Of a stretch of DNA of 56,823 nt, positions 20,464-52,137 are shown one piece after another (the first letter of the stretch is position 1; each line of letters begins with the position of its first letter). Source of the DNA: an uncultured Flavobacteriales bacterium (GTDB lineage: Bacteria > Bacteroidota > Bacteroidia > Flavobacteriales_G > Salibacteraceae). The translations under genes were made by a program, and so were the position numbers. Under the pieces are notes generated by a model. The model worked only from the letters and a program-made list of their open reading frames with translations, did not search any database and had not been told where the DNA came from. The stretch spans positions 1 through 56,823 of the forward strand of contig CALCCE010000090.1 of the NCBI GenBank assembly GCA_937899835.1. The letters run 5' to 3'.

Positions 20464-20624
20464 AGCTTGTTGATATTGGGCGGCAAAGATACGGATTCGA
20501 AGTGGCTGAACGAGCAAGGGTAAGACCTGCTGAAAACCAACTATTTCAAAAAAAGAGAAGCATTTTATGGAATTGCTTACCGGCATTCACCTTCAGGATG
20601 TGCATCTTGATAAACGAGTTCAAC

Positions 20625-21404
20625 ATGGAGAAGCCTCAATTTGAAATGCCGCGTCCTTGTTCACAAGGATGGGAGCAAATGGACCCGGTCGAAAAAGATC
20701 GCTGGTGTGCCCGCTGCGATAAAAAGGTCTACGATTTTACCCAGGCCTCAGCGGCTACCATTCAGCAGGTTTACCAACAAGCGGAAGGGCGCATCTGTGG
20801 TCGATTGCGAAGAGAGCAGTTGATGCCCGTTCCATCCGGATGGAGCTTAAAGCATTTTGTGCTGGCCCTTTGGCTCGTTTTTGGTACTTCGCTCTTTAGC
20901 GGAGTGCAAGCCCAAAACGATACCATTGTTTTTGCCGAAGAGCAGTACCGTACCTTCACCATTGAGGTGAAAGATGCCAGCGGGGCAGTGTTGCCTGGAG
21001 CCAATGTGGTGGTGCACCTCGAAGGTAAAACACAAGTGTTTGCTGAATCTGCCGGGGATGATGGTAAGGCAACGGTTTATTTATCATTGGATAATATCGG
21101 TGAGGCATCTTCAATCTTGGTAAGCGTATTCTACATTGCCATGGAACCACAACATTTTTGCTTTCAGATCGACTCCAAGGCAGAACTCAATAGTGCAGCG
21201 CTGCGCGCGTCCTACCTCGAACTGACGCAAGTAGATTTGGGTGAAGGGTTTGAACTTCGTCAATGGGAGGGAACCTTAGAAGTTCGTTTGAGCGAAGACC
21301 CCAATACCATTGTAATTGGCGAAGTGGTCATGCCTCCGCGCTGGCAGCACAAGTTTCGCCGGGCCAATCCGTTTAAAAAACAACAACCCCGATACCATGA
21401 GTAA
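20625..21404 (+). CDS. Four-cysteine single-pass membrane protein, paralogue 1
   Basis: A 259-residue protein, first of three tandem paralogues. Residues 1-65 form a cysteine domain with the pattern PC (Cys12), W-x2-M, CARCDKKVYDFT (Cys28, Cys31) and CGR (Cys58). One hydrophobic helix follows (about 75-97, ending GVQAQ), then an outer domain opening FTIEVKDASGAVLPGANVVVH, which is a carboxypeptidase-regulatory-like (CNA-B/SusC-plug type) beta sandwich. The domain order suggests a cytoplasmic cysteine domain and a periplasmic beta domain, although the helix could instead be a late signal sequence. The ATG at 20625 places the motif as in the other two copies. Confidence 0.72.
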   Translation: MEKPQFEMPRPCSQGWEQMDPVEKDRWCARCDKKVYDFTQASAATIQQVYQQAEGRICGRLRREQLMPVPSGWSLKHFVLALWLVFGTSLFSGVQAQNDTIVFAEEQYRTFTIEVKDASGAVLPGANVVVHLEGKTQVFAESAGDDGKATVYLSLDNIGEASSILVSVFYIAMEPQHFCFQIDSKAELNSAALRASYLELTQVDLGEGFELRQWEGTLEVRLSEDPNTIVIGEVVMPPRWQHKFRRANPFKKQQPRYHE

Positions 21405-21493
21405 CGACCGATTGCCCCACGGGCATCTCCATTCTCAATGCAAGGGCTCTACACGTTCACTTTAGAAGCGGCATACCCCCAATAACTGAATCC

Positions 21494-22894
21494 ATGACCG
21501 ACATTAACATTTCTATCCCAGCTCCGTGCCACGAAGATTGGGGCAAGATGAGCCCTGCTGACAAAGGCCGTTTTTGCCAGTCGTGCAGCAAAGTGGTGCG
21601 CGATTTCACCAACGAAAGCCAGGAAGCGATTTACCAAGCCTATCAAGAGGCGAAGGGACAGCTGTGCGGCCGCTTTCGCGAAACGCAAATCACTGCTCAG
21701 CCAGCACCCATTCGGCCCTTTTCCTGGATCAAGCGTTTTGTGTTGGCCTTGATGTTGGCCTTTGGTGCCCACCTTTTTGTGTTTGCTCAATCTCCGGGAA
21801 TTGATGACTCCTTAACCCCAAGGGAAGCCCTTTGGTTGGAGGTAGAGCCCGAAAACACCACCGTTTTTTCCTTCACCGTGAAGGAGGCCACCACCGGTGA
21901 GGCCATTGCTGGTGCAAAAGTGAAATTGGTAGGAGCCATCGCCGACACCAAGTGGACCAATGCCTTGGGAATGGCGCGAATAGCGATCACCAAAAGGGAA
22001 ATATGGCGGTTGCCCTTGCTCGTAAAAGTGACTGCCGAAGGCTATCCAGCTCAGGAGTTGGTGGTCGATCTGCAAAAGGCCGATTGGCTGATTGAAATGG
22101 GCGCGATTACTGCTAAATCAGTTCCAGGCAGCACGGGTGAAAGCCCAGTAGTTGTTTTTCAAGAGGTCGACTTTACCGAACCAACCGTTTCGCAAGTCGT
22201 TTTCCCGGATAACCTTACCGGAATAGTGTCCATTCGTTCAGCAACTGCGTCACCAGCGGACACGCTTACTCCCCAGCAACGCACCCATTTTTCAGAAGCA
22301 GCTTTGCGCAACGATTTAGAAGGACCAGCTGCGGAAGAAGCCAATCCTAGTGATAGAAACACCCACCCAAAAGCCACAATGGCCGAACAGGACCAGAGCA
22401 ATATAAAACTGGTGGAGGAGGGAACACCGGATGTTAAACTGCCTGGTGATACCCAAGGGCAAAGCAATGGTTCTTCCCTGGTTAACGAAGGTGCTCCAAT
22501 GCAGGGGAGGAGTTCGAGTGATAGCACGACCACTCAATCATACGAAGAGGAGAAAGCAAGATTTGAGGCTGACCCACGCCTAAAAATACTTTTACAAACT
22601 ATGGGTAAGATGCGGGTCACCCTAGCAGAAGAATCAACTGAAAATGCTGACCAATGCGCCAGGGTAAAAGGGGAGATAAAGGTGGCTCCAATGACCGAAA
22701 GCGACAGTACATCATCTTCTCAAAGCAACACCCTACAAGAGCTAGAAGTAATTGAACGACAGGTGCCTCGGGAGGAAACCATTTATTTGGGAAAGCCGTC
22801 GGTAAATCATACCGAAAGAGAAACCAGCCCTACCCGATTACCGAATACATTACCCAATTCTATCTCAACCAACAGCGAGCAACAAAGTCCGTAG
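21494..22894 (+). CDS. Four-cysteine single-pass membrane protein, paralogue 2
   Basis: A 466-residue paralogue of the genes on either side. The N-terminal domain keeps PC (Cys12), WGKMSPADKGRFC, CQSCSKVVRDFT and LCGRF at the same spacing. A hydrophobic helix (about 80-100, ALMLAFGAHLFVFAQ) leads into a carboxypeptidase-regulatory-like beta domain (FSFTVKEATTGEAIAGAKVKLVG). Unlike its neighbours it has a long C-terminal extension (about residues 230-466) rich in Ser, Thr, Glu, Gln and Pro, with no recognised domain and probably disordered. It begins 89 bp after paralogue 1. Confidence 0.72.
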   Translation: MTDINISIPAPCHEDWGKMSPADKGRFCQSCSKVVRDFTNESQEAIYQAYQEAKGQLCGRFRETQITAQPAPIRPFSWIKRFVLALMLAFGAHLFVFAQSPGIDDSLTPREALWLEVEPENTTVFSFTVKEATTGEAIAGAKVKLVGAIADTKWTNALGMARIAITKREIWRLPLLVKVTAEGYPAQELVVDLQKADWLIEMGAITAKSVPGSTGESPVVVFQEVDFTEPTVSQVVFPDNLTGIVSIRSATASPADTLTPQQRTHFSEAALRNDLEGPAAEEANPSDRNTHPKATMAEQDQSNIKLVEEGTPDVKLPGDTQGQSNGSSLVNEGAPMQGRSSSDSTTTQSYEEEKARFEADPRLKILLQTMGKMRVTLAEESTENADQCARVKGEIKVAPMTESDSTSSSQSNTLQELEVIERQVPREETIYLGKPSVNHTERETSPTRLPNTLPNSISTNSEQQSP

Positions 22895-22936
22895 GAAGAC
22901 GGATGAACCAATTTTTTCTAACCAAAGCCCCAATAC

Positions 22937-23872
22937 ATGCCCCCAATAAACTTTACTGTTCCCGAGCCTTGTGGCAAGACCTGGAACGACCTGGAGCCCC
23001 GAAAACTTGGCAGGCACTGTAATGCTTGCGAAAAGGTAGTGTATGATATGACCGGAATGACCGGTGAGCAAATCCTGAAGTTTTACCGCCAAAAGGAAGG
23101 AAAGGTCTGCGGGCGGTTTCACCCTTTCCAGCTGACGGATGCTCCTTTGCGGCCCGCTTCCTGGCTTAGGCGCTTTTTACTCTGCCTGTTGTTGGTGTTT
23201 GGAAACTATCTGTTTGTTTTTGCCGACTCGCACACTGCCAGTTGGATAGAAAAAACCACAACCGAGTGGTTGGATGCACCAGTAAAAGTCCAAATCGAAG
23301 TAGTGGATGCTGTTTCAGGCTTGACCATTGCCGGAGCCCACGTGTTGGTGAAGCCGGGAGAAACGCCTTATCGATTGCGCGCCTCTCTGACCGATTCTCT
23401 TGGGAAAACAACCCTTACTTACCAGCAAGCGGAAGAACAAGAAATTGCCTGGGGAGAGGTTGAAGTAAGTTTTCCAGGATATCAACTTTCCCAAATAGCC
23501 GTACCTCAGAAATCCGGATTGTTTCAAGTAGCGTTGAAGCGAAAAACACATTCGGTGGACTTTGCTTGTAGGACTTTTGGCACCACGGTTACCTTTATGC
23601 CCCATTCGGACGAAGCTTTTATCTATGGAGACCTATGGGCTTCCGGGCCTATTTTCAGAGATCCAGATCATTTCTTGTTTTACCCACCGGTGAACAGCTT
23701 CAAAAACCTGGAGGCGCTTGAGAACCGCATTGTCTCTGACCCCGAGCCAGAAAAGTCAGTATTAGAAAGTACTCAGGTGCCCATGCCCGCAAAGCCTCCA
23801 CTACCGGAGCCTCCACCCATCACGCCACTACTGCCAGAGCCTTCCCAACTAAGAATAGGGCGAGGGGAGTAG
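22937..23872 (+). CDS. Four-cysteine single-pass membrane protein, paralogue 3
   Basis: A 311-residue third paralogue, 42 bp after the second. PC (Cys12), W-x2-L, CNACEKVVYDMT and VCGRF are conserved, followed by a hydrophobic helix (FLLCLLLVFGNYLFVFA, about 77-94) and a beta domain opening VQIEVVDAVSGLTIAGAHVLV. The C-terminus ends in a Pro-rich tail. The conserved order in three copies shows that the N-terminal cysteines are functional rather than accidental. Substrate and partners are unknown. Confidence 0.72.
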   Translation: MPPINFTVPEPCGKTWNDLEPRKLGRHCNACEKVVYDMTGMTGEQILKFYRQKEGKVCGRFHPFQLTDAPLRPASWLRRFLLCLLLVFGNYLFVFADSHTASWIEKTTTEWLDAPVKVQIEVVDAVSGLTIAGAHVLVKPGETPYRLRASLTDSLGKTTLTYQQAEEQEIAWGEVEVSFPGYQLSQIAVPQKSGLFQVALKRKTHSVDFACRTFGTTVTFMPHSDEAFIYGDLWASGPIFRDPDHFLFYPPVNSFKNLEALENRIVSDPEPEKSVLESTQVPMPAKPPLPEPPPITPLLPEPSQLRIGRGE

Positions 23873-43327: not shown

Positions 43328-46300
43328 TTATTTTACGCGCTTAATGGAGTTGCGGATTTCTTCGAAAACAATCGGTTTGCTCACATAATCGTTCATTCCT
43401 GCCTTCAAGCATACTTCTCTATCTCCTTTCAAAGCATTGGCCGTCATAGCAATGATGTAGGGTTGTCGTTCCTTCGGTAAACCTTTTCGAATTTGGCGAG
43501 TAGCTTCCAAACCGTCCATTTCAGGCATTTGTACATCCATGAGAATCAAGTCATAGTGTTTCAATCCCAAGGCGTGAACGGCCTCAAGCCCGTTGGCTGC
43601 TTTGTCTGGTTTATAGCCGAGTTTTTCCAGCAGTTTGGTGGCCAATACCTGGTTAACTATGTTGTCTTCAACGATCAAAATGCGCAATGGATGCGCTTCT
43701 GCCATTAGTTTAGGCGTGGTATCCTGGTCGTTGACTTGCACCTGCGGATGTTGTTCCTGAAAGACCATTTCGCCCAACTGAGCCATCAGTTGGCCGTACT
43801 TCAGAGGTTTGGTCAAGACCTCTGAAAATCGATCTGCTTTGTTGGATTTTCCTCCATAGTGGGCGAGGTGGGTGAGAAGCAATTGTGGCAGTGCTTTTCC
43901 GTTGAGCTTCTCAATGCTTTTCGCCAATCGGTTCGATTTTTTGGGAGACAGGTTGCTGTCCACAACGGCAAAGTCGAATTCCTCTGTAATGTGGTCCAAC
44001 TCCAATGCCTCGTTAAACCGGGCAACCATAACGGAGAGGTGTTGGTCTTCCAAGGTTTGGCGCAGTAATTTGAGCGAACTGGTGTTTTGAGAAACCAATA
44101 AAATTCGCTTTGCTTGAAGCTCTTGTGGTATTTCAGGAGTAGGAGTGGATGCCGCCGGTTCCATGTGTACCACAAACGAAAATTCTGAACCTTTTCCTTC
44201 TGAACTGGCTACGGAGATTTTTCCGCCCATGTATTCTACCAGTCGGGCACAAATCACCAGACCGAGCCCTGTACCTCCAAACCTGCGGGTGGTAGAAGAG
44301 TCTACCTGTGAGAAGGCCTTGAACAAACGGGTCATTTTGTTTTTCGGAATGCCGATGCCTGTGTCGGTTACCGAAAAGGCCAGTTGTACTTTCCCTTTGT
44401 ACAGTCCTTGGTAGCCAACGCGAACGATAATTTCTCCCTTCGCAGTGAATTTTATAGCATTGTCTACCAGGTTGACCAACACTTGTCTCAAGCGGGTAAT
44501 GTCTCCAAAAAAGGCCTGTGGTACTTCCGGCTCGATGTAGTGCAACAACTCCAAACCCTTTTGCAGGGCTTTTGCAGAAACCAATTCCATGGCTTCTTCT
44601 ACGCAAGTGCGCACGTTGAAGTGGTTTTGCTCCAATTGGAGCTGACCTGCTTCAATTTTGGAGAAGTCCAGAATTTGGTTGATCACCTCCAACAGGTGAT
44701 CGCCACTGATACGAATGGTTTCCAGGTATTCTTGCTGTTCAGAACTCAACGGAGTATCCATCAACAGGTTGGTCATGCCAATCACACCGTTCATAGGCGT
44801 TCGAATTTCATGACTCATCGAAGCGAGGAACTCCGATTTAGTTTTAGCCGCTTGTTCTGCAATGTCTTTGGCCCGAAGCATTTCTTCTTCGGCCGCCTTT
44901 TTGGCAGAAATGTCTCGTATGGCCCCATCGTAATACTCATTGCCCAATTCATCCACGTTGAGCATGCTGCTCACCAGGGCCGTGAATTGGGAACCATCTT
45001 TTCGTACAAAAACTACCTCTTCATTGTTGAATTGACCGTGGTCCGCCAGTTTTTGAATGAGTTCTAAACGGCGATCGGGATGTGCATACAACTTACTGGA
45101 AGGTGTTTGCATGACCTCCTCTACAGAATTGTAACCCACCATGTTTACGAAAGCATCATTGACATAGATGATGCCCTTGTCCTGAGTACTGCGGTAAATG
45201 CCCTCTTTGATGTTCCGGTTGATGGAGGCCAGCAGCTGTTGATTGCTCCGCAATGTGGTTTCTGCGTTCCGTTGTACCGTAATGTCTTTCACAAAAGAGG
45301 AAGCACCAATGATTCTTCCCGCTTCCCGGATGGGAAAGGTGCGGGTTTCATACACCCGGGTCTCGTCTTCTACCTGATAACTATCGGTATAAATACCTCC
45401 CTTTCCATTCAAGGTTTTTTCCAAGCGTTTTTTCCAGATGATCCGGTCTTTTTGGTGCGATTCGGGGATCAGTTCGAGCAATTGGCGGCCTTGACGAATG
45501 CGTTGACCAAAAACCGCTTGAAAGAACCGTGCGAAAACGTGGTTGAACGTCTTGATCTCCATACGATCATTCACCAACCAAATGGCATCACCAGCATTTT
45601 CTAAAATGCTTCTTAAGTTGGCCTCGTTCTCAATAATGAGGTTTTCGTAGGCTTTTTGCTCGGATATATCTTTAATGGTGGCCAGCTCCATCTGCTGCCC
45701 GTCTACTTCAAACAAATTGATGGTCACTGCCCCCCAAAAGACCTCTCCGTTGCGTCTTCGGTGCCGGTATTCTGAAGACCAATAACCAACTGCCTGCAAA
45801 CGTTCGTTGATCAATTCCCGTATCTCAGTTGGCAGTGGTTCTGCCAGCAGCTCACTGGTATCTTTGTTGAGCAACTCTTCTTTGGCATTGCAGTGGAAGA
45901 TGTCCAAAGTCCGGCGGTTGCATTCAATGATGCGATGCGTCTTGTAATCGACGAGGATGAGCGCATTGGGCGATTCGTGGAATATGTTTTCCAGCAGTTG
46001 CTCGTGATATTCCCTTCGTTCCTTTACTTGCTCTTGGGTGGTACAATCTTCACAGTAGATGGAAATTCCGCTTACTTCATTTTGTCCATTGCGAATAGGG
46101 TAGAAGCGAGTGAGGGTAACGTACTGTCGATCCCCTTTCTCATAGCGGTTTTTGACCTCAAAACTGTGGCCCTCTAAGGCGCGGTGGTAGTGTGGCAGCC
46201 ATTTGGCTAAAAGGTCTTCGCCAATGCCTTCAAAAATATTTTGTCCTATCGATATCGGAACCTCGATTAAATTTTTGCGGTATTCTAAATAAGCCGAATT

Positions 46301-47356
46301 GCAGACTTGCAATCGAAAATTCTGGTCTACCGACCATATTTTCTCGTTCGAATGTTCAATCACCGCCTGTAGGTTAACATCCTGCTGTTCCAATTGGCGG
46401 GTGCGCTCTTCCAGTTGACGGTCTTTGTCTACCTGCGATTGCTGGTAATGCTGCAGCGATTCCGAGAAATCGGTTTGTAACAACTTTAGCGCGTTCATAA
46501 CGTGGTAGTTGGGGTCCGACTTTGGCAGTGAGGCAACATCCGAAGGCGTATTTTTCCAATACACATTCGCAATGGTTTTGAGCAATTGATTGCGCCATTG
46601 CTCTTTCTTGCTGTGGTCAAATTGCTGTTGTGCCTCCAATTGTTTCACCCGTTCCACCAATTCGGCGTGAGAAAGAGACTCCAATTCGGTGGTATTGGCA
46701 GCACCTTCGCCCTGTGATGCATGAAAGGAACCGGATTCGAACAACACCTGGTGCAATCCTTCAGAAAGACTGTCTACCCAGGTTGCGCCCTCAAAGCGAT
46801 CGGGCATCCGGGCCCGATAAAGGTGAAAAACTGTTTGCGGCTCAGGAGGTAAAACCAGACAGACCCTTCCCCAACAATTCTTGATTTCCTGATCGGCATC
46901 AGACATGGCTTCCTGCACCGATCTGGGAAAGTGCGCCAACTCCGAGAGGTCGAACAACAGGTTTAGCTGTTGGTGTTCAGATGCTTGTAAGATCGCGCGG
47001 TAAATAACCTGGGTTTGTTTAAGGGCTTCTGTTTCAATTGGAGCCAGAAACCGCGCTAGGAGTACACTTTGGTCAATTAGAAAGGCCAAAAACAAGGTTT
47101 GGCCTGCATCATTTTTAATCTCCCACTCTGGCCTGTATTCCAGGGAGTAGGACTGATCAGCAATATGAATTTCTTTCAAACGCTTCCAATGAATGGAGAA
47201 CGGAGTGTCAGGAATATTCTGAGTTTTTGTCGCACGCGGATTCAACCTTGAATCAAGGTGGCCAGATTCATCTCTGACTAAAGCACTGGAGTCCTGAGGT
47301 CTTAACAAAACAGGGTAGAGGGAAAAACGAACGACGGCCTTGAAGATGCTGCGCAT
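43328..47356 (-). CDS. Multi-PAS hybrid sensor histidine kinase with two receiver domains
   Basis: A 1342-residue sensor kinase without an obvious transmembrane segment. The first ~230 residues are an unrecognised alpha/beta domain, followed by a coiled coil (about 240-345), four PAS/PAC-like units (about 335-830), HisKA with His849 in SHEIRTPMNG, an HATPase domain (N box NLVDNAIKFT, DTGIGIP, GGTGLGL), a receiver domain with Asp in FAVVDSNL but no acidic pair (LLVSQN), and a complete receiver with phospho-acceptor Asp1274 in LILMDVQMPEMDG and Lys in VSKP. The first receiver is probably not phosphorylated. I start at ATG 47356; a GTG at 47410 would add 18 residues. Confidence 0.9.
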   Translation of the reverse strand: MRSIFKAVVRFSLYPVLLRPQDSSALVRDESGHLDSRLNPRATKTQNIPDTPFSIHWKRLKEIHIADQSYSLEYRPEWEIKNDAGQTLFLAFLIDQSVLLARFLAPIETEALKQTQVIYRAILQASEHQQLNLLFDLSELAHFPRSVQEAMSDADQEIKNCWGRVCLVLPPEPQTVFHLYRARMPDRFEGATWVDSLSEGLHQVLFESGSFHASQGEGAANTTELESLSHAELVERVKQLEAQQQFDHSKKEQWRNQLLKTIANVYWKNTPSDVASLPKSDPNYHVMNALKLLQTDFSESLQHYQQSQVDKDRQLEERTRQLEQQDVNLQAVIEHSNEKIWSVDQNFRLQVCNSAYLEYRKNLIEVPISIGQNIFEGIGEDLLAKWLPHYHRALEGHSFEVKNRYEKGDRQYVTLTRFYPIRNGQNEVSGISIYCEDCTTQEQVKERREYHEQLLENIFHESPNALILVDYKTHRIIECNRRTLDIFHCNAKEELLNKDTSELLAEPLPTEIRELINERLQAVGYWSSEYRHRRRNGEVFWGAVTINLFEVDGQQMELATIKDISEQKAYENLIIENEANLRSILENAGDAIWLVNDRMEIKTFNHVFARFFQAVFGQRIRQGRQLLELIPESHQKDRIIWKKRLEKTLNGKGGIYTDSYQVEDETRVYETRTFPIREAGRIIGASSFVKDITVQRNAETTLRSNQQLLASINRNIKEGIYRSTQDKGIIYVNDAFVNMVGYNSVEEVMQTPSSKLYAHPDRRLELIQKLADHGQFNNEEVVFVRKDGSQFTALVSSMLNVDELGNEYYDGAIRDISAKKAAEEEMLRAKDIAEQAAKTKSEFLASMSHEIRTPMNGVIGMTNLLMDTPLSSEQQEYLETIRISGDHLLEVINQILDFSKIEAGQLQLEQNHFNVRTCVEEAMELVSAKALQKGLELLHYIEPEVPQAFFGDITRLRQVLVNLVDNAIKFTAKGEIIVRVGYQGLYKGKVQLAFSVTDTGIGIPKNKMTRLFKAFSQVDSSTTRRFGGTGLGLVICARLVEYMGGKISVASSEGKGSEFSFVVHMEPAASTPTPEIPQELQAKRILLVSQNTSSLKLLRQTLEDQHLSVMVARFNEALELDHITEEFDFAVVDSNLSPKKSNRLAKSIEKLNGKALPQLLLTHLAHYGGKSNKADRFSEVLTKPLKYGQLMAQLGEMVFQEQHPQVQVNDQDTTPKLMAEAHPLRILIVEDNIVNQVLATKLLEKLGYKPDKAANGLEAVHALGLKHYDLILMDVQMPEMDGLEATRQIRKGLPKERQPYIIAMTANALKGDREVCLKAGMNDYVSKPIVFEEIRNSIKRVK

Positions 47357-47421
47357 AAATATATTCAATTTATGCCAGAGTATGTGGAGCGTGTTATCAA
47401 CACTAACCACTATATTTTACA

Positions 47422-48198
47422 TTAAAACTTCTCGAATGCCCCCAGGCCAAAAAGGGCAAAATCGTATTTCACCGGATCTGATGCATCAAATTGGCGCAAA
47501 GTTTCGGTGAGTTCTTCCACAGATTTCCAGTCATTAATTTTTCGTTCGAGCAGCCCCAGTTTGCGTGCTACATTCCCAGAATGCACGTCTAATGGACAAT
47601 ACAGGTCTGCCGGGGACAGTACATTCCAAATTCCAAAATCGACCCCAGCCTGTCCGCTTCGAACCATCCATCGGAGAAACATGTTCAGCCGTTTTGCAGA
47701 AGATCCTTTGTTGGGATTGGAGACATGTTTTTGTGTACGATGTGGAAAAGGTAGGGCGAAGAACCGATCTCTAAAGGCAATTAGAGAAGCTTTTCCTTTT
47801 GGATGGACCGTTTGATGAGGAGGTGTAAAAGCGGCTTCTAAACCGCCATAGGCCCGATACAAGTGTTGTAGCGCTTGTATGAAATAACGGGCATCAATGC
47901 CGTTGAAGGTGCGGTGGCAAAAAGAATCAAAACGATTCAATTCATTCGGAGATGCATGCTTTACGAACTCATAAGGACTTTCGTCCATCAGTTGCATCAA
48001 CTTTCGGCCATTGTTGATAATGGTAGGCCGCTGACCCCAGGCAATGGTAGCACTAAGAAAACCGGCGATTTCAACGTCTTCTTTTCTACTAAAGGATCGT
48101 GGTATTTGGATGGGATCCGATTCCAGAAACTTAGGCTGGTGATACTGCTCAAACTTAGACTCTAAAAAGTCGCGTAAATCTTGGGGCTCCAGATGCAT
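47422..48198 (-). CDS. TIGR02757 family protein (DUF2400)
   Basis: A 258-residue protein of the TIGR02757/DUF2400 family, a Bacteroidota family of unknown function. Diagnostic segments are DPIQIPRSFSRKEDVEIAGFLSATIAWGQR (residues ~28-57), KRLNMFLRWMVRSG (near 170), and WNVLSPADLYCPLDVHSGNVARKLGLL (near 192-218). The last two resemble HhH/base-excision-like segments, but no enzymatic claim is justified. It lies between the single-domain receiver gene and the hybrid kinase gene in the same direction, with gaps of 36 and 65 bp. Confidence 0.85.
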   Translation of the reverse strand: MHLEPQDLRDFLESKFEQYHQPKFLESDPIQIPRSFSRKEDVEIAGFLSATIAWGQRPTIINNGRKLMQLMDESPYEFVKHASPNELNRFDSFCHRTFNGIDARYFIQALQHLYRAYGGLEAAFTPPHQTVHPKGKASLIAFRDRFFALPFPHRTQKHVSNPNKGSSAKRLNMFLRWMVRSGQAGVDFGIWNVLSPADLYCPLDVHSGNVARKLGLLERKINDWKSVEELTETLRQFDASDPVKYDFALFGLGAFEKF

Positions 48199-48234: not shown

Positions 48235-48660
48235 TCAGCAGGCCGGTTGTAATCGATACAATTGGCGGATATCCAAAGGCTTGGTCACCTGATCGGTAAC
48301 AAAACTATATTTGGCAATGCGATAATCTAATTCAGTTTTGAACTGAAAATAAATACTCATCAACACTACGCGTGTATTGTCACGAATCCACTGCGGGAGG
48401 CGGGTAAATTCTTCTAAGAACACAAAGCTATTGGGAGTACTGTTCTTAATGTCCAAGAAGATTATTTGTGGGAGATCTTGAGGAGCCTTCGCATTCTTAA
48501 GCATTTCCAAGGCTTGGATAGGATCGCGCTCTTTGTGAATCTGGCGAATGTCGGCTCCGATGAGGAGCGTTTGTTCTGTGGCATACAACTCACTGCTGCT
48601 TTGATCGATGAGCATCACCGATTGAAATTGCAGAAAGTCGCTTTTAGGGAGAGTTGCCAT
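48235..48660 (-). CDS. Single-domain receiver-like protein
   Basis: A 141-residue protein with a CheY-like receiver fold and no output domain. The phospho-acceptor Asp70 (IIFLDIKNS), Ser102 (VVLMS) and Lys127 (VTKPLD) are in place, but only one acidic residue (Asp19, in VMLIDQSSS) remains of the usual acidic pair, so magnesium binding may be weak. It is a candidate phosphorelay partner for the nearby hybrid kinase (two genes downstream, same strand); this is inferred from position only. Confidence 0.72.
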   Translation of the reverse strand: MATLPKSDFLQFQSVMLIDQSSSELYATEQTLLIGADIRQIHKERDPIQALEMLKNAKAPQDLPQIIFLDIKNSTPNSFVFLEEFTRLPQWIRDNTRVVLMSIYFQFKTELDYRIAKYSFVTDQVTKPLDIRQLYRLQPAC

Positions 48661-48690
48661 GCGTTGTTTGCCAGATTAAGTAAGATAAGC

Positions 48691-48712
48691 GCGGGAAAGT
48701 ATCCTTTCCCGC
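48691..48712. promoter_or_regulatory. Perfect hairpin upstream of the receiver gene
   Basis: GCGGGAAAG (48691-48699), loop TATC, CTTTCCCGC (48704-48712). It is 30 bp before the receiver start on the minus strand. No T-run follows on either side, so it is more likely a leader structure or operator than a terminator. Confidence 0.45.
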
Positions 48713-49058
48713 ACCTATCAAACTTAGGTAGATTAACATTAATTATTTAACCTAATTTGTTATCTACCTGCCCCAGTATTATTAACTTCAGCGACTTTTC
48801 GAAGGACTTGTGTCAATCTTCATCGCTGCGGTATTCTATTGGTTGGGTCGATATTTGAAAGAACGTTGTAATCAAATCGACAATACAAATATTGCCCCTT
48901 TGTAGAGACTGTACGAGGACAAAGCATCATAAATCGAGACACAAAAAATGTATCTGATTTATGATAACCAATTGTAAGCGAGTGTTTTGTGAAGGGAAAA
49001 TGCGACACAAAACATCAATTTTCAAGCCTTTTATTTACTCGAAAACCTATGAAAATAG

Positions 49059-49112
49059 CTTAGAAGAGATTCCCCTAAAGGCTATCTCTTCTAAGGCTTA
49101 GTATGTTTTTTT
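49059..49112 (-). terminator. Stem-loop after the small secreted protein genes
   Basis: CTTAGAAGAGAT (49059-49070) and ATCTCTTCTAAG (49084-49095) form a perfect 12-bp stem with a 13-base loop, 30 bp after the stop of the gene at 49126. The minus strand continues CTATTTTC; the plus strand has TTTTTTT at 49106-49112. It could act in both directions. The long loop and weak minus-strand T-run leave some doubt. Confidence 0.55.
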
Positions 49113-49125
49113 ACCTGCTTCCGAC

Positions 49126-49317
49126 CTACTCGAGGTCGAAACCAGAGCCATCAGCATATTCTTTTTGTTCTTGCGCCTGATACTCCTGCTGCACTTGCTC
49201 GTGCGTGTATCCTTCTGAATAAAGTTCATTGTAGAGTGCTTCGTCACTCATGGCGTTAGCAGAAGTCGAGGAGATTCCACAGATGGAAATAACGAGTGCA
49301 ATAAGAAAAGAGGTCAT
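49126..49317 (-). CDS. Small secreted acidic protein, copy 1
   Basis: A 63-residue protein with a signal peptide (MTSFLIALVISICGISSTSANA, cleavage likely after ANA) and a short mature part of about 40 acidic residues: SDEALYNELYSEGYTHEQ, then a Gln/Glu-rich helix, ending DGSGFDLE. It has no cysteine, so it is not disulfide stabilised. I take the ATG at 49317 rather than 49338 because the signal peptide then matches copy 2 residue for residue (MTSFLIA). It has no family name that I know. Its tandem copy lies 125 bp upstream. Confidence 0.7.
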   Translation of the reverse strand: MTSFLIALVISICGISSTSANAMSDEALYNELYSEGYTHEQVQQEYQAQEQKEYADGSGFDLE

Positions 49318-49335
49318 ATTTATGGGTTTTAGTTG

Positions 49336-49354
49336 CAAGAGCGTTGAGCTCTTG
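49336..49354 (-). promoter_or_regulatory. Leader hairpin of small protein copy 1
   Basis: CAAGAGC (49336-49342), loop GTTGA, GCTCTTG (49348-49354): a perfect 7-bp stem about 18 bp upstream of the start codon. A similar hairpin sharing GCTCTTG precedes copy 2 at 49658-49673. Confidence 0.45.
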
Positions 49355-49442
49355 TTGTGGTTAGTTTGGTATGGGTTTTAATGGTCTTCTGATGTAGCAG
49401 AAGCTTGAAATGGTAGACTATAGTAACGATGTTGTAGACAGG

Positions 49443-49622
49443 CTATTCTAAATCGAATCCTGATCCATCGTAACCAGCAGCTTGCAATTCTTGGTTGATT
49501 TGTTCAGTAGTGTACCCCTCTGTATAGAGTGCATCAACCATCTGATCATCATTCATAGTAGAAGCAGTGTCAGGTGTGATTCCGAGTAGAGCGATAACAA
49601 TAGCAATCAAAAAAGAAGTCAT
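49443..49622 (-). CDS. Small secreted acidic protein, copy 2
   Basis: A 59-residue protein translated from ATG 49622 to TAG 49443, below the usual gene-length cut-off. Signal peptide MTSFLIAIVIALLGITPDTA, then STMNDDQMVDALYTEGYTTEQ, a short Gln-rich helix and the ending YDGSGFDLE. It shares with copy 1 the first seven residues, the LY-x-EGYT-x-EQ core, QE-x-QA, and the last eight residues. Conservation at protein level with different codons is strong evidence that both are real genes. Function unknown; a structural, inhibitory or signalling peptide are all possible. Confidence 0.7.
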   Translation of the reverse strand: MTSFLIAIVIALLGITPDTASTMNDDQMVDALYTEGYTTEQINQELQAAGYDGSGFDLE

Positions 49623-49891: not shown

Positions 49892-51478
49892 ATGAAAAAC
49901 GATTACTTTTCGCACTTAAAGCTGCTGATTTCGAAGCTCGAACCCCGTGAGGTAAAGGTGGCTCAGAAGTTTATTGTTGCGTTTTACTCTTCCCGTTCGC
50001 GGGGAGGTAACAAATCTTTAAAGCTCTTTCGCTTGTTGGTACAACGGCCAGACATCGCGCGAAACGATGCCAAAAGGTTGGTGAGTAAAGAGGCTGACAA
50101 CGCCTCTTTTCGTAGGCTGGTTGTTCGTTTGACCGATAAAATTTGCGATGCAGTTCTGTTAGATCATTCTATCCAACGCAACGATTCACACAGTAAGATT
50201 AACAAAATCCGCTTTGAACTCCGAAAAAAGCTCATGCAGTCTCAAATATTCCGGACGCGTGGCTTAACCAGTGTGACCATCAGCATTTACGACCAAATCA
50301 TCGAAAAAGCCCGTCAATACGAGTTGTACAATGAAATGGTAGAAGCCTTGAGTCTGAAACAGCAGCTTTTAGGGCTTACTGTTGGAGCCAAGGAGTTTTA
50401 CCAAATCTCTCATGAACTCAATCACTTTGAGCGGTGTCGGATGGCAGTGCTTCGTGCTAAAGACTGGTACTACCGACACTACCTTGAGGTGGATTCTACA
50501 GGATTGAACAACGATCGGGTAGGGTTGCTCACCGAGGCGATTGCCGATCTTCAGGAAGAGTTTCGCGCTACCCAGTCACAAAACGTGGGATACATCTTAT
50601 ATGCACTCAAGATGGAGTACTACCTCGCAGTAGAGGAGTATAAAACCAGTTGCGAGACGGGCATCAGTCTGGTCCGGCTCATTGAGAATAACCGGTTGTT
50701 GTTCAACGATAGGATGTTGGCCAATGCTTATTATTCATTGTCGGACAGTAAGCTGTATGTGCAAAATTTCGAAGAGGCCATCTATCACGCCAAAAAGGCT
50801 CAAAGCATCCTTATCCCTGGAAGCTTCAACTTTCAAAAATCGTTGGAGATGGAATTGTTGGCCTTCTACTATAAAGGCCATGAATTGGATCGGGTTACGG
50901 AATTGACTGAAGAGCTACTGAGCATCACCGATCGGAAAAAAACACCCTTTCTGTTCAGCCAGCGGTCTTATTATAAAGCATGCATACTCTTTCTTAAGGG
51001 AGAATACCGCAAGTCCTTCTTTCTGCTCAACGATACCCGTGAAATTGAGAAAGACCGCGAAGGTTGGAACATTGGCATTCGGACCCTGAGCATCATGAAT
51101 CAAATTGAAATGATGTTTCTCGATTTTGCTGATGCACAGATTGAATCCATGCGGAAGCACGTTCAGCGGGTAAAGGCGCAGAGTTCTATTCGAAAGCGAG
51201 ACGAAATCATACTGCAACTGCTGTTGAAACTGGAAAAGCACAGCTTTGACTTTCAAAAGGTATTTGATACCAATCAAGACCTGTTCGCCCTGCTTGATTC
51301 TGAACAAAAAGAATACCGGTGGGAAGTGCGCACACCTGAAATGATCGTTTTTCAGGATTGGTTTAAAGCCAAAATTGCTGGTAAACCCTATCATTTTTTG
51401 CTTCCAGGCGAGGAACAGGTGGTAGAAGAAACCGTTTTGAAAAGTCGGGCAGTGGTTCGGCAAAAATCTGGAAGCTAA
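49892..51478 (+). CDS. Helical-repeat (TPR-like) cytoplasmic protein of unknown function
   Basis: A 528-residue protein without signal peptide or transmembrane segment. The first ~100 residues are a basic helical domain (LISKLEPREVKVAQKFIVAFY to LVVRLTDKICDAVLL); the remainder is a series of paired helices resembling TPR repeats (for example NAYYSLSDSKLYVQNFEEAIYHAKKAQSIL near residue 275). The layout resembles a Bacteroidota family of about 500-residue proteins whose N-termini start with a similar helix bundle; none is characterised as far as I know. It is divergent from the small secreted proteins and converges on lolD. Start ATG 49892. Confidence 0.7.
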   Translation: MKNDYFSHLKLLISKLEPREVKVAQKFIVAFYSSRSRGGNKSLKLFRLLVQRPDIARNDAKRLVSKEADNASFRRLVVRLTDKICDAVLLDHSIQRNDSHSKINKIRFELRKKLMQSQIFRTRGLTSVTISIYDQIIEKARQYELYNEMVEALSLKQQLLGLTVGAKEFYQISHELNHFERCRMAVLRAKDWYYRHYLEVDSTGLNNDRVGLLTEAIADLQEEFRATQSQNVGYILYALKMEYYLAVEEYKTSCETGISLVRLIENNRLLFNDRMLANAYYSLSDSKLYVQNFEEAIYHAKKAQSILIPGSFNFQKSLEMELLAFYYKGHELDRVTELTEELLSITDRKKTPFLFSQRSYYKACILFLKGEYRKSFFLLNDTREIEKDREGWNIGIRTLSIMNQIEMMFLDFADAQIESMRKHVQRVKAQSSIRKRDEIILQLLLKLEKHSFDFQKVFDTNQDLFALLDSEQKEYRWEVRTPEMIVFQDWFKAKIAGKPYHFLLPGEEQVVEETVLKSRAVVRQKSGS

Positions 51479-51486
51479 GCGGCTCT

Positions 51487-52137
51487 TTAATCAATCGCTC
51501 CGTCAATAATGGTAAGCTTACGGTCGGCCATGGCTGCCAAATCTTTGTTGTGCGTTACAATGACGAAGGCTTGCTGGTAGCGGCCGCGCAGTGTAAAGAA
51601 CAACTCGTGCAATTCTCGTGCATTGACCGAATCGAGGTTGCCCGAAGGCTCATCTGCCAATACTACCGCAGGACGGTTAATGAGTGCTCTGGCCACTGCT
51701 ACCCGTTGTTGTTCTCCTCCTGATAGTTCCGAAGGCTTGTGGTCGAGTCGACTTCCCAGGCCTAAAAAATCGAGCAGTTCCTGGGCTTCATCCTGGCTTT
51801 TTTGTTTGGCTTTTTTGCCGATGTAGGCCGGAATACACACATTTTCGAGTGCTGTAAACTCAGGTAGCAGGTGGTGAAACTGAAATACGAATCCGATGTT
51901 TTGGTTTCGAAAAGTGGCCAATTCGCGGTCGCGCAGTCGACTTACCTCGGTATTGTTGATGATTAACGAACCGGAAGACGCTTTGTCTAAGGTCCCCAAT
52001 ATCTGCAACAACGTTGTTTTTCCGGCACCTGAAGCCCCAACTACAGAAATTACTTCTCCCTTTTCAATCTTCAGGTGCACCCCTTTCAGTACTTCAAGGT
52101 CGCCGTAAGATTTGCGAATGTCGGTAGCATGAATCAT
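51487..52137 (-). CDS. lolD: ABC transporter ATP-binding protein (LolD-like)
   Basis: A 216-residue ATPase of the LolD/MacB class. Walker [10 protein letters not shown] (near residue 36), Q-loop in [23 protein letters not shown], signature [15 protein letters not shown] (near 140), Walker [14 protein letters not shown] and the switch histidine in VIVTHNKD. The [13 protein letters not shown] wording is typical of LolD, which powers release of lipoproteins from the inner membrane. No permease gene is next to it, so the partner LolCE-type protein must be elsewhere and the substrate is not proven. Confidence 0.9.

Follow-up and report, generated by a model that had tools for sequence, protein, structure and literature searches.

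What do two adjacent small open reading frames (ORFs) ending in the same eight residues do in an uncultured Flavobacteriales bacterium, and do they act alone? We addressed this question in the window, i.e., the whole 56,823-nucleotide stretch of DNA that was analysed.

Two tandem ORFs encode conserved acidic proteins

A preliminary description of the window, made from sequence alone, had claimed that two minus-strand frames of 63 and 59 codons share their start, core and tail. This claim held: both frames were found in place, and BLASTP showed that their similarity is not due to chance. ORF A (49443-49622, minus strand; 59 amino acids), a candidate pro-peptide, and its tandem paralogue ORF B (49126-49317, minus strand; 63 amino acids) are separated by 125 nucleotides and have in common the motifs MTSFLIA, LY-x-EGYT-x-EQ and DGSGFDLE. 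The codons of this last motif, which is the C-terminal tail and the candidate mature peptide or its core, lie at 49446-49469 in ORF A and at 49129-49152 in ORF B (both minus strand).

The two ORFs encode proteins under purifying selection, as is shown by the following lines of evidence. First, BLASTP aligned A and B over their full length (54% identity, E 7e-23). Second, 20 of the 34 residues that are identical between them (out of 59) are written with different synonymous codons, and the differences fall at the three codon positions in the proportion 22/11/40. Third, the dN/dS comparison that the preliminary description had proposed gave, for the pair, a dN of about 0.35-0.38 and a saturated dS. 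Fourth, the tail is identical at all eight residues in spite of six synonymous codon changes. Since synonymous changes are saturated and the protein is conserved, A and B are old protein-coding paralogues, neither chance ORFs nor a recent copy.

The claim that each protein carries a signal peptide held only in part. Both start with an uncharged hydrophobic stretch with no lysine or arginine ahead of it; ORF B possesses a normal-looking signal-peptidase site, between ANA and MSD, and ORF A only a weak one. The claim of a short, acidic and cysteine-free mature part held: the remainder of both proteins is strongly acidic, with a strongly negative net charge, and is devoid of cysteine because the sole cysteine sits inside the hydrophobic stretch of ORF B, outside any lipobox. 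AlphaFold predicted short helices and a loose tail for the pair (pLDDT 74 in one of five models). Two Pfam matches of ORF B, to PF07553 (Lipoprotein_Ltp; E 0.0045, 17.5 bits against the curated 23.2) and to PF13663 (DUF4148; E 0.022, 15.6 against 27 bits), were rejected as chance or generic, and ORF A matched neither family.

The A-B spacer (49318-49440, minus strand) can form two hairpins, one ending about 20 nucleotides ahead of the ATG of ORF B (z -3.8), and a stable hairpin with 12-bp perfect arms lies directly 3' of ORF B (49059-49095, minus strand; z -3.8), where it may mark the transcript end. These hairpins, which flank the ORFs 5' and 3', together with the hydrophobic starts and the tandem copies, are what could be expected of type-I-toxin-like hydrophobic peptides or of translated leader peptides, which would act through their RNA or by damaging the membrane, and not through the tail. 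We regard this explanation as very unlikely: selection acts on the protein tail, the net charge is strongly negative, and the search of Rfam returned sub-threshold matches only, with no family above threshold.

A divergent neighbouring gene encodes a TPR-like protein

Taken alone, the pair looks like an orphan, since plain searches find no relative. The 6.9-Mb genome to which it belongs has no other such pair, and no relative was found by plain searches in about 85,000 genomes. The comparisons within the family (35 genomes), the class (395) and the phylum (395), like those with the GTDB r220 contigs and with viral contigs, yielded only weak matches in long frames. A search of 11.3 million contigs with the reverse-translated tail followed by a stop codon returned seven matches, none of them Bacteroidota by title, which is close to the number estimated by chance.

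The preliminary description had missed a partner that changes the meaning of the finding. Divergently from ORFs A and B, on the plus strand, the gene 49892-51478 encodes a 528-residue helical TPR-like protein, a candidate cytosolic receptor of the peptide. As ORFs A and B are on the opposite strand from this gene, they are not its leader. The protein belongs to no Pfam family, its own sequence match to a TPR model is weak (TPR_2, E 0.08), and its single-sequence fold is all-helical and poor (pLDDT 44), hence unusable for structure search. Homologues occur in 78 of the 395 class genomes, often several per genome. An alignment of 27 of them (A3), up to nine of which matched TPR models weakly, was compared as a profile with the PDB. 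It retrieved TPR proteins, the best natural (non-designed) chain being RapJ (4gyo, E 9.5e-5), a pheromone receptor of Bacillus. This match supports the fold but not membership, because it covers only about 110 columns and other generic TPR proteins follow close behind. No TPR homologue was found in plasmid and phage records.

Homologues of the pair lie beside homologues of the TPR gene

Direct homologues of A and B were found in a family other than that of the window, designated f35. Four f35 peptides align to the window pair (MTSLITILIALLGYG...GYTEEQLN...), and the profile of these six sequences (A5) was searched against the 395 genomes. It matched the window genome and five f35 genomes (G369, G113, G177, G261 and G235), in each of which the match adjoins a TPR gene. 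No confident match was found away from a TPR gene in the 395 genomes, the remaining matches having E values of 0.014 or more, except for a fragment of 27 codons, of uncertain placement, at the end of contig G235:C8. A weak match in another member of the window family (G008) was rejected, being a frame without the common plan.

The f35 homologues end in tails other than DGSGFDLE, and tails differ among f35 species, as the peptide ends do not align. The preliminary description had stated that it would be refuted if related genomes had no homologues that keep the tail; taken literally, for the letters DGSGFDLE, this condition is met. Such differing tails are nevertheless, as far as can be inferred from sequence alone, the pattern expected of a specificity-determining peptide.

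A tree built from 69 TPR proteins places the window protein next to its nearest homologue, the receptor of genome G106 (support 99/96; 46-47% identity), and joins these two to the f35 receptors (99/98). As these f35 receptors are the ones accompanied by homologues of A and B, receptors and peptides show the same kinship. The class of the neighbouring peptide also clusters on the receptor tree (none of 500 shuffles gave a value as low).

Short divergent ORFs recur beside TPR genes

Inspection of the upstream side of 69 TPR genes, collected from the window and 60 regions around TPR homologues, showed that the pairing of a TPR gene with small ORFs is recurrent. Many of these loci display the same plan, namely an uncharged hydrophobic N-terminus, a variable middle and a conserved, locus-specific tail, often in tandem. 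With fixed criteria, divergent short ORFs were found at 27 of 61 TPR upstream regions and, among 70 other genes from the same contigs and loci to which the same criteria were applied, upstream of one (Fisher p 4e-10); short ORFs on the TPR gene's own strand occurred at only three of the 61. The criteria were fixed after examples had been seen. The p value overstates independence, because the loci are partly related; but their receptors are mostly 20-47% identical to that of the window. By the automatic rule, 18 of the 69 TPR genes had no such neighbour despite enough sequence. The distant TPR paralogues of genomes G000, G012 and G007 also lack an adjacent gene for a small peptide; one of them (G000:C250, L139:2473-3990, minus strand) belongs to the window's own genome.

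These data bear on the possibility that A and B are chance ORFs or a recent non-functional duplication, in favour of which stand only their short length and the lack of homologues in plain sequence searches. Besides the saturation of synonymous sites over a conserved protein, the f35 homologues adjoin the same TPR gene and the architecture recurs far above the control, so that this possibility is refuted and can be all but dismissed.

The TPR genes of a second clade are accompanied by divergent proteins of 80-115 residues that carry a canonical signal peptide. The automatic rule counts 17 such cases, among them L060, which is really of the uncharged type when an inner ATG is used. This larger class of small secreted proteins, found upstream of the TPR gene at L077, L081, L082, L086-L088, L090-L093, L097 and L101 and also at L102, L107, L111 and L117, has a 'QVYEYLxxxGYxVxxL...' domain in many of its members and is possibly an unnamed ligand family. 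At the second TPR genes of family f63, the divergent ORF reads, by eye, like an XRE-type helix-turn-helix protein. These XRE-like ORFs, at L065 (2099-2374), L076 (5529-5840) and L105 (5541-5912), all on the minus strand, occupy the position that the peptide gene has at other loci.

The C-terminal tails are conserved and locus-specific

The preliminary description had proposed that the C-terminal tail is what matters, as a recognition or binding element. The codon pattern supports this proposal, and so does the occurrence of the same plan beside other TPR homologues; the evidence comes from sequences only, with no binding data. Six groups of peptides have a higher identity over their last nine residues than over the middle: 0.89 against 0.40 for the window pair, and 0.93/0.44, 0.84/0.64, 0.63/0.26, 0.93/0.88 and 0.67/0.53 for the other five. 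Examples of such tails are IITNDEVGM (L066, four copies, starting with MISAISTLLIA), IITNDETGM (L068, three copies), GTEQSGWGLK (L061, three copies), IIVDELQH (L109 and L110, three to six copies), IIWETNEK (L113, L114 and L116, two to three copies) and IIGLEETDF with close variants (L080, L083, L085 and L089, starting with MELLIA). Two genomes, G044 and G126, possess two TPR loci each, with a different tail beside each receptor.

The strongest single item in support of the tail is locus L061, with its three divergent precursors that have IGTEQSGWG(LK) in common. One of them contains IGTEQSGWG twice, one copy being internal, which upsets the automatic tail score of this group. This double-tail precursor resembles Phr105, in which the pheromone likewise occurs twice (PMC11343458).

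The main rival explanation of these tails is that A and B are unreleased inner-membrane partners, the acidic tail of which would bind the TPR protein inside the cell, without any cell-cell signal. It is modelled, by analogy, on the EEVD tails of Hsp70 and Hsp90, which are known to bind TPR clamps. In its favour are the tight pairing of TPR genes and small ORFs, the acidity of the C-terminal tails, and the absence of both a charged n-region and a consistent cleavage site. We consider it unlikely for three reasons. First, the internal second tail of the L061 precursor is unsuited to a clamp ligand that requires a free C-terminus. Second, the strong tandem amplification, up to six copies, fits a secreted product. 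Third, acidic segments beside an uncharged N-terminus are more often translocated, as is generally known. The L061 internal tail and the tandem amplification count against the membrane-held partner; they do not exclude it.

Genes surrounding the pair

The pair is also neighboured by DUF2400, REC-like (receiver-like), sensor kinase and SucC-like genes. The receiver-like gene (48235-48660, minus strand), which adjoins the pair, encodes an atypical protein of 141 residues. A receiver-like gene occupies the same position, past the peptide gene and divergent from the TPR gene, in seven TPR loci (the window, L076, L077, L082, L093, L105 and L106) spanning five families (f1, f63, f22, f39 and f17). 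PF00072 was recognised in three of the five receiver-like proteins tested (L077, L093 and L076; E 1e-8 to 1e-5). The window copy of the receiver-like protein has no Pfam match, PF00072 being unrecognised in it, and the phospho-acceptor is replaced at some loci (L076 and L105). A strong inverted repeat (48677-48726; 23-nucleotide arms, 4-nucleotide loop) was noticed in the leader of the window receiver-like gene; the L20 leader model (RF00558) matches across it, with a score below threshold.

The DUF2400/TIGR02757 gene (47422-48198, minus strand), shared with L061, L076 and L105, is a synteny marker, probably outside the mechanism. Its location on the same side in four loci indicates an old shared locus. 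Just beyond it, a gene at 43328-47410, on the same strand as the peptide and receiver-like genes, encodes a 1360-residue hybrid sensor kinase (PAS, HisKA, HATPase_c and receiver domains). Elsewhere in the window, we noticed three consecutive ORFs (20502-23872) that have a cysteine motif (PCxxxWxxMxPxxKGRxCxxCxKxVxDFT...CGRF) in common at the N-terminus; a membrane segment comes next, and then exported parts that differ.

Next to the TPR gene of genome G106, on its 3' side, come genes for OppA (PF00496), OppB and OppC and a second TPR gene. No Opp genes were found near the TPR gene in the stretch examined at any other locus; the window genome encodes three OppA-type binding proteins.

An ABC ATPase gene (51487-52137) lies just past the TPR gene. 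Along with the short, secreted-looking products and their tandem copies, it could suggest that A and B are secreted as bacteriocin- or RiPP-like (antimicrobial or modified) peptides, the TPR protein being their regulator or immunity factor. This is again very unlikely. The ATPase scores best against LolD, which points to a housekeeping function, and the locus has neither a modifying enzyme nor a dedicated exporter, nor do the peptides have a double-glycine leader. Moreover, the tails are short and conserved instead of variable, the TPR protein has no match in PADLOC, and the peptides have only weak, non-significant matches in PHROGs.

A proposed peptide-signalling pathway

We propose that ORFs A and B encode tandem pro-pheromones that operate with a cytosolic TPR receptor, in an RRNPP- or Rap-Phr-like manner, in Bacteroidota. 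We give this reading a probability of about 0.58, i.e., we lean towards it, its export, processing, re-import, binding and output steps being inferred. In this model, each short acidic protein would be brought to the inner membrane, or through it, by its uncharged hydrophobic N-terminus; proteolysis would free its conserved C-terminal end, consisting of DGSGFDLE or of a little more; an oligopeptide transporter would take the released peptide back up; and the TPR-like protein 49892-51478 would bind it. The peptide-bound TPR protein may then act on a regulator and change its activity, in the way that Rap acts on Spo0F. The receiver-like protein 48235-48660 is a possible target, this link between the TPR and receiver-like proteins being also an inference. 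The tandem pro-peptides would raise the output, and the tails would set the specificity.

Against the pheromone reading, the N-terminus is uncharged, whereas a normal Sec signal is positively charged there. Also to be counted against it are the weak TPR matches of the window protein, the limited extent of the RapJ match, the TPR genes and distant paralogues without a peptide neighbour, the larger canonical secreted proteins of the second receptor clade, and the loss of the phospho-acceptor from some receivers. Furthermore, this reading rests on no experiment, expression data or usable structure.

Comparison with known systems

The RRNPP/RRNPPA systems (Rap-Phr, NprR-NprX, PlcR-PapR, Rgg-SHP, PrgX and AimR) operate in the quorum sensing of Firmicutes, and peptide quorum sensing via cytosolic TPR receptors is generally described as a Firmicutes trait. 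The window system is RRNPP-like in its anatomy. As in RRNPP, the gene of a TPR protein adjoins that of a short propeptide with a hydrophobic head and a conserved C-terminal segment, the RRNPP criterion of an adjacent gene for a 10-100-residue propeptide being met. Similarly, propeptides or pheromones are duplicated, tails differ between receptor groups, and an Opp cluster occurs at one locus.

The differences are as follows. The phylum, Bacteroidota, is Gram-negative, and the relatives of the receptor were found in the same class. The window receptor has 528 residues and its relatives mostly about 490-560, as compared with the 250-500 residues of the RRNPP_detector rule. The propeptide genes are divergent from the receptor gene, often as two to several separate tandem genes, and the N-termini are uncharged. 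Kinship by sequence goes only through general TPR similarity (best natural match RapJ), without binding data. We therefore do not file the system as RRNPP: its receptor is longer than the 250-500-residue rule allows, it comes from another phylum, and the binding of the peptide is only inferred. As for the 5-9 TPR motifs forming a peptide-binding superhelix by which RRNPP receptors are defined, the window family gives partial signs, namely an all-helical prediction (pLDDT 44), weak TPR matches in up to nine of 27 homologues, and profile matches to TPR structures that include RapJ.

Two particular systems deserve comparison. Rap proteins are known to act on Spo0F and, like Rap-Phr-Spo0F of Bacillus, the present loci combine a TPR protein, a secreted-looking peptide and a single-domain receiver-like protein, neighbours in seven loci; unlike it, the receiver is atypical, the phospho-acceptor is not always kept, there is no sporulation pathway, and a phosphatase or binding activity is only inferred. 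Like the SHP peptides exported by PptAB, A and B are short, hydrophobic and poorly recognised as Sec signals, with a C-terminal active segment in SHP and the conserved segment at the same end here; no sequence kinship to SHP/PptAB has been shown.

Implications for Bacteroidota

The surveys of RRNPP(A) systems covered Firmicutes and their viruses, not Bacteroidota (PMC10075063, PMC9765709), and our search of the open literature, incomplete for subscription papers and preprints, found no description of such a system in Bacteroidota. A bolder reading is that the loci represent a phylum-wide, undescribed peptide-pheromone system, made of one diversified TPR receptor family with its own tandem pro-pheromones for each specificity and sometimes a receiver-domain target, and independent of, or very far from, the RRNPP systems of Firmicutes. 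We hold this wider reading to be possible, falling slightly short of an even chance. Peptide-plus-sensor message systems of the type that these loci resemble have so far been described in Gram-positive bacteria, and the arrangement reported here recurs across many Bacteroidota genomes. If the pheromone reading is true, a candidate receptor, a candidate peptide sequence and a candidate target would all be readable from the DNA, and a large Gram-negative phylum would have its own peptide language.
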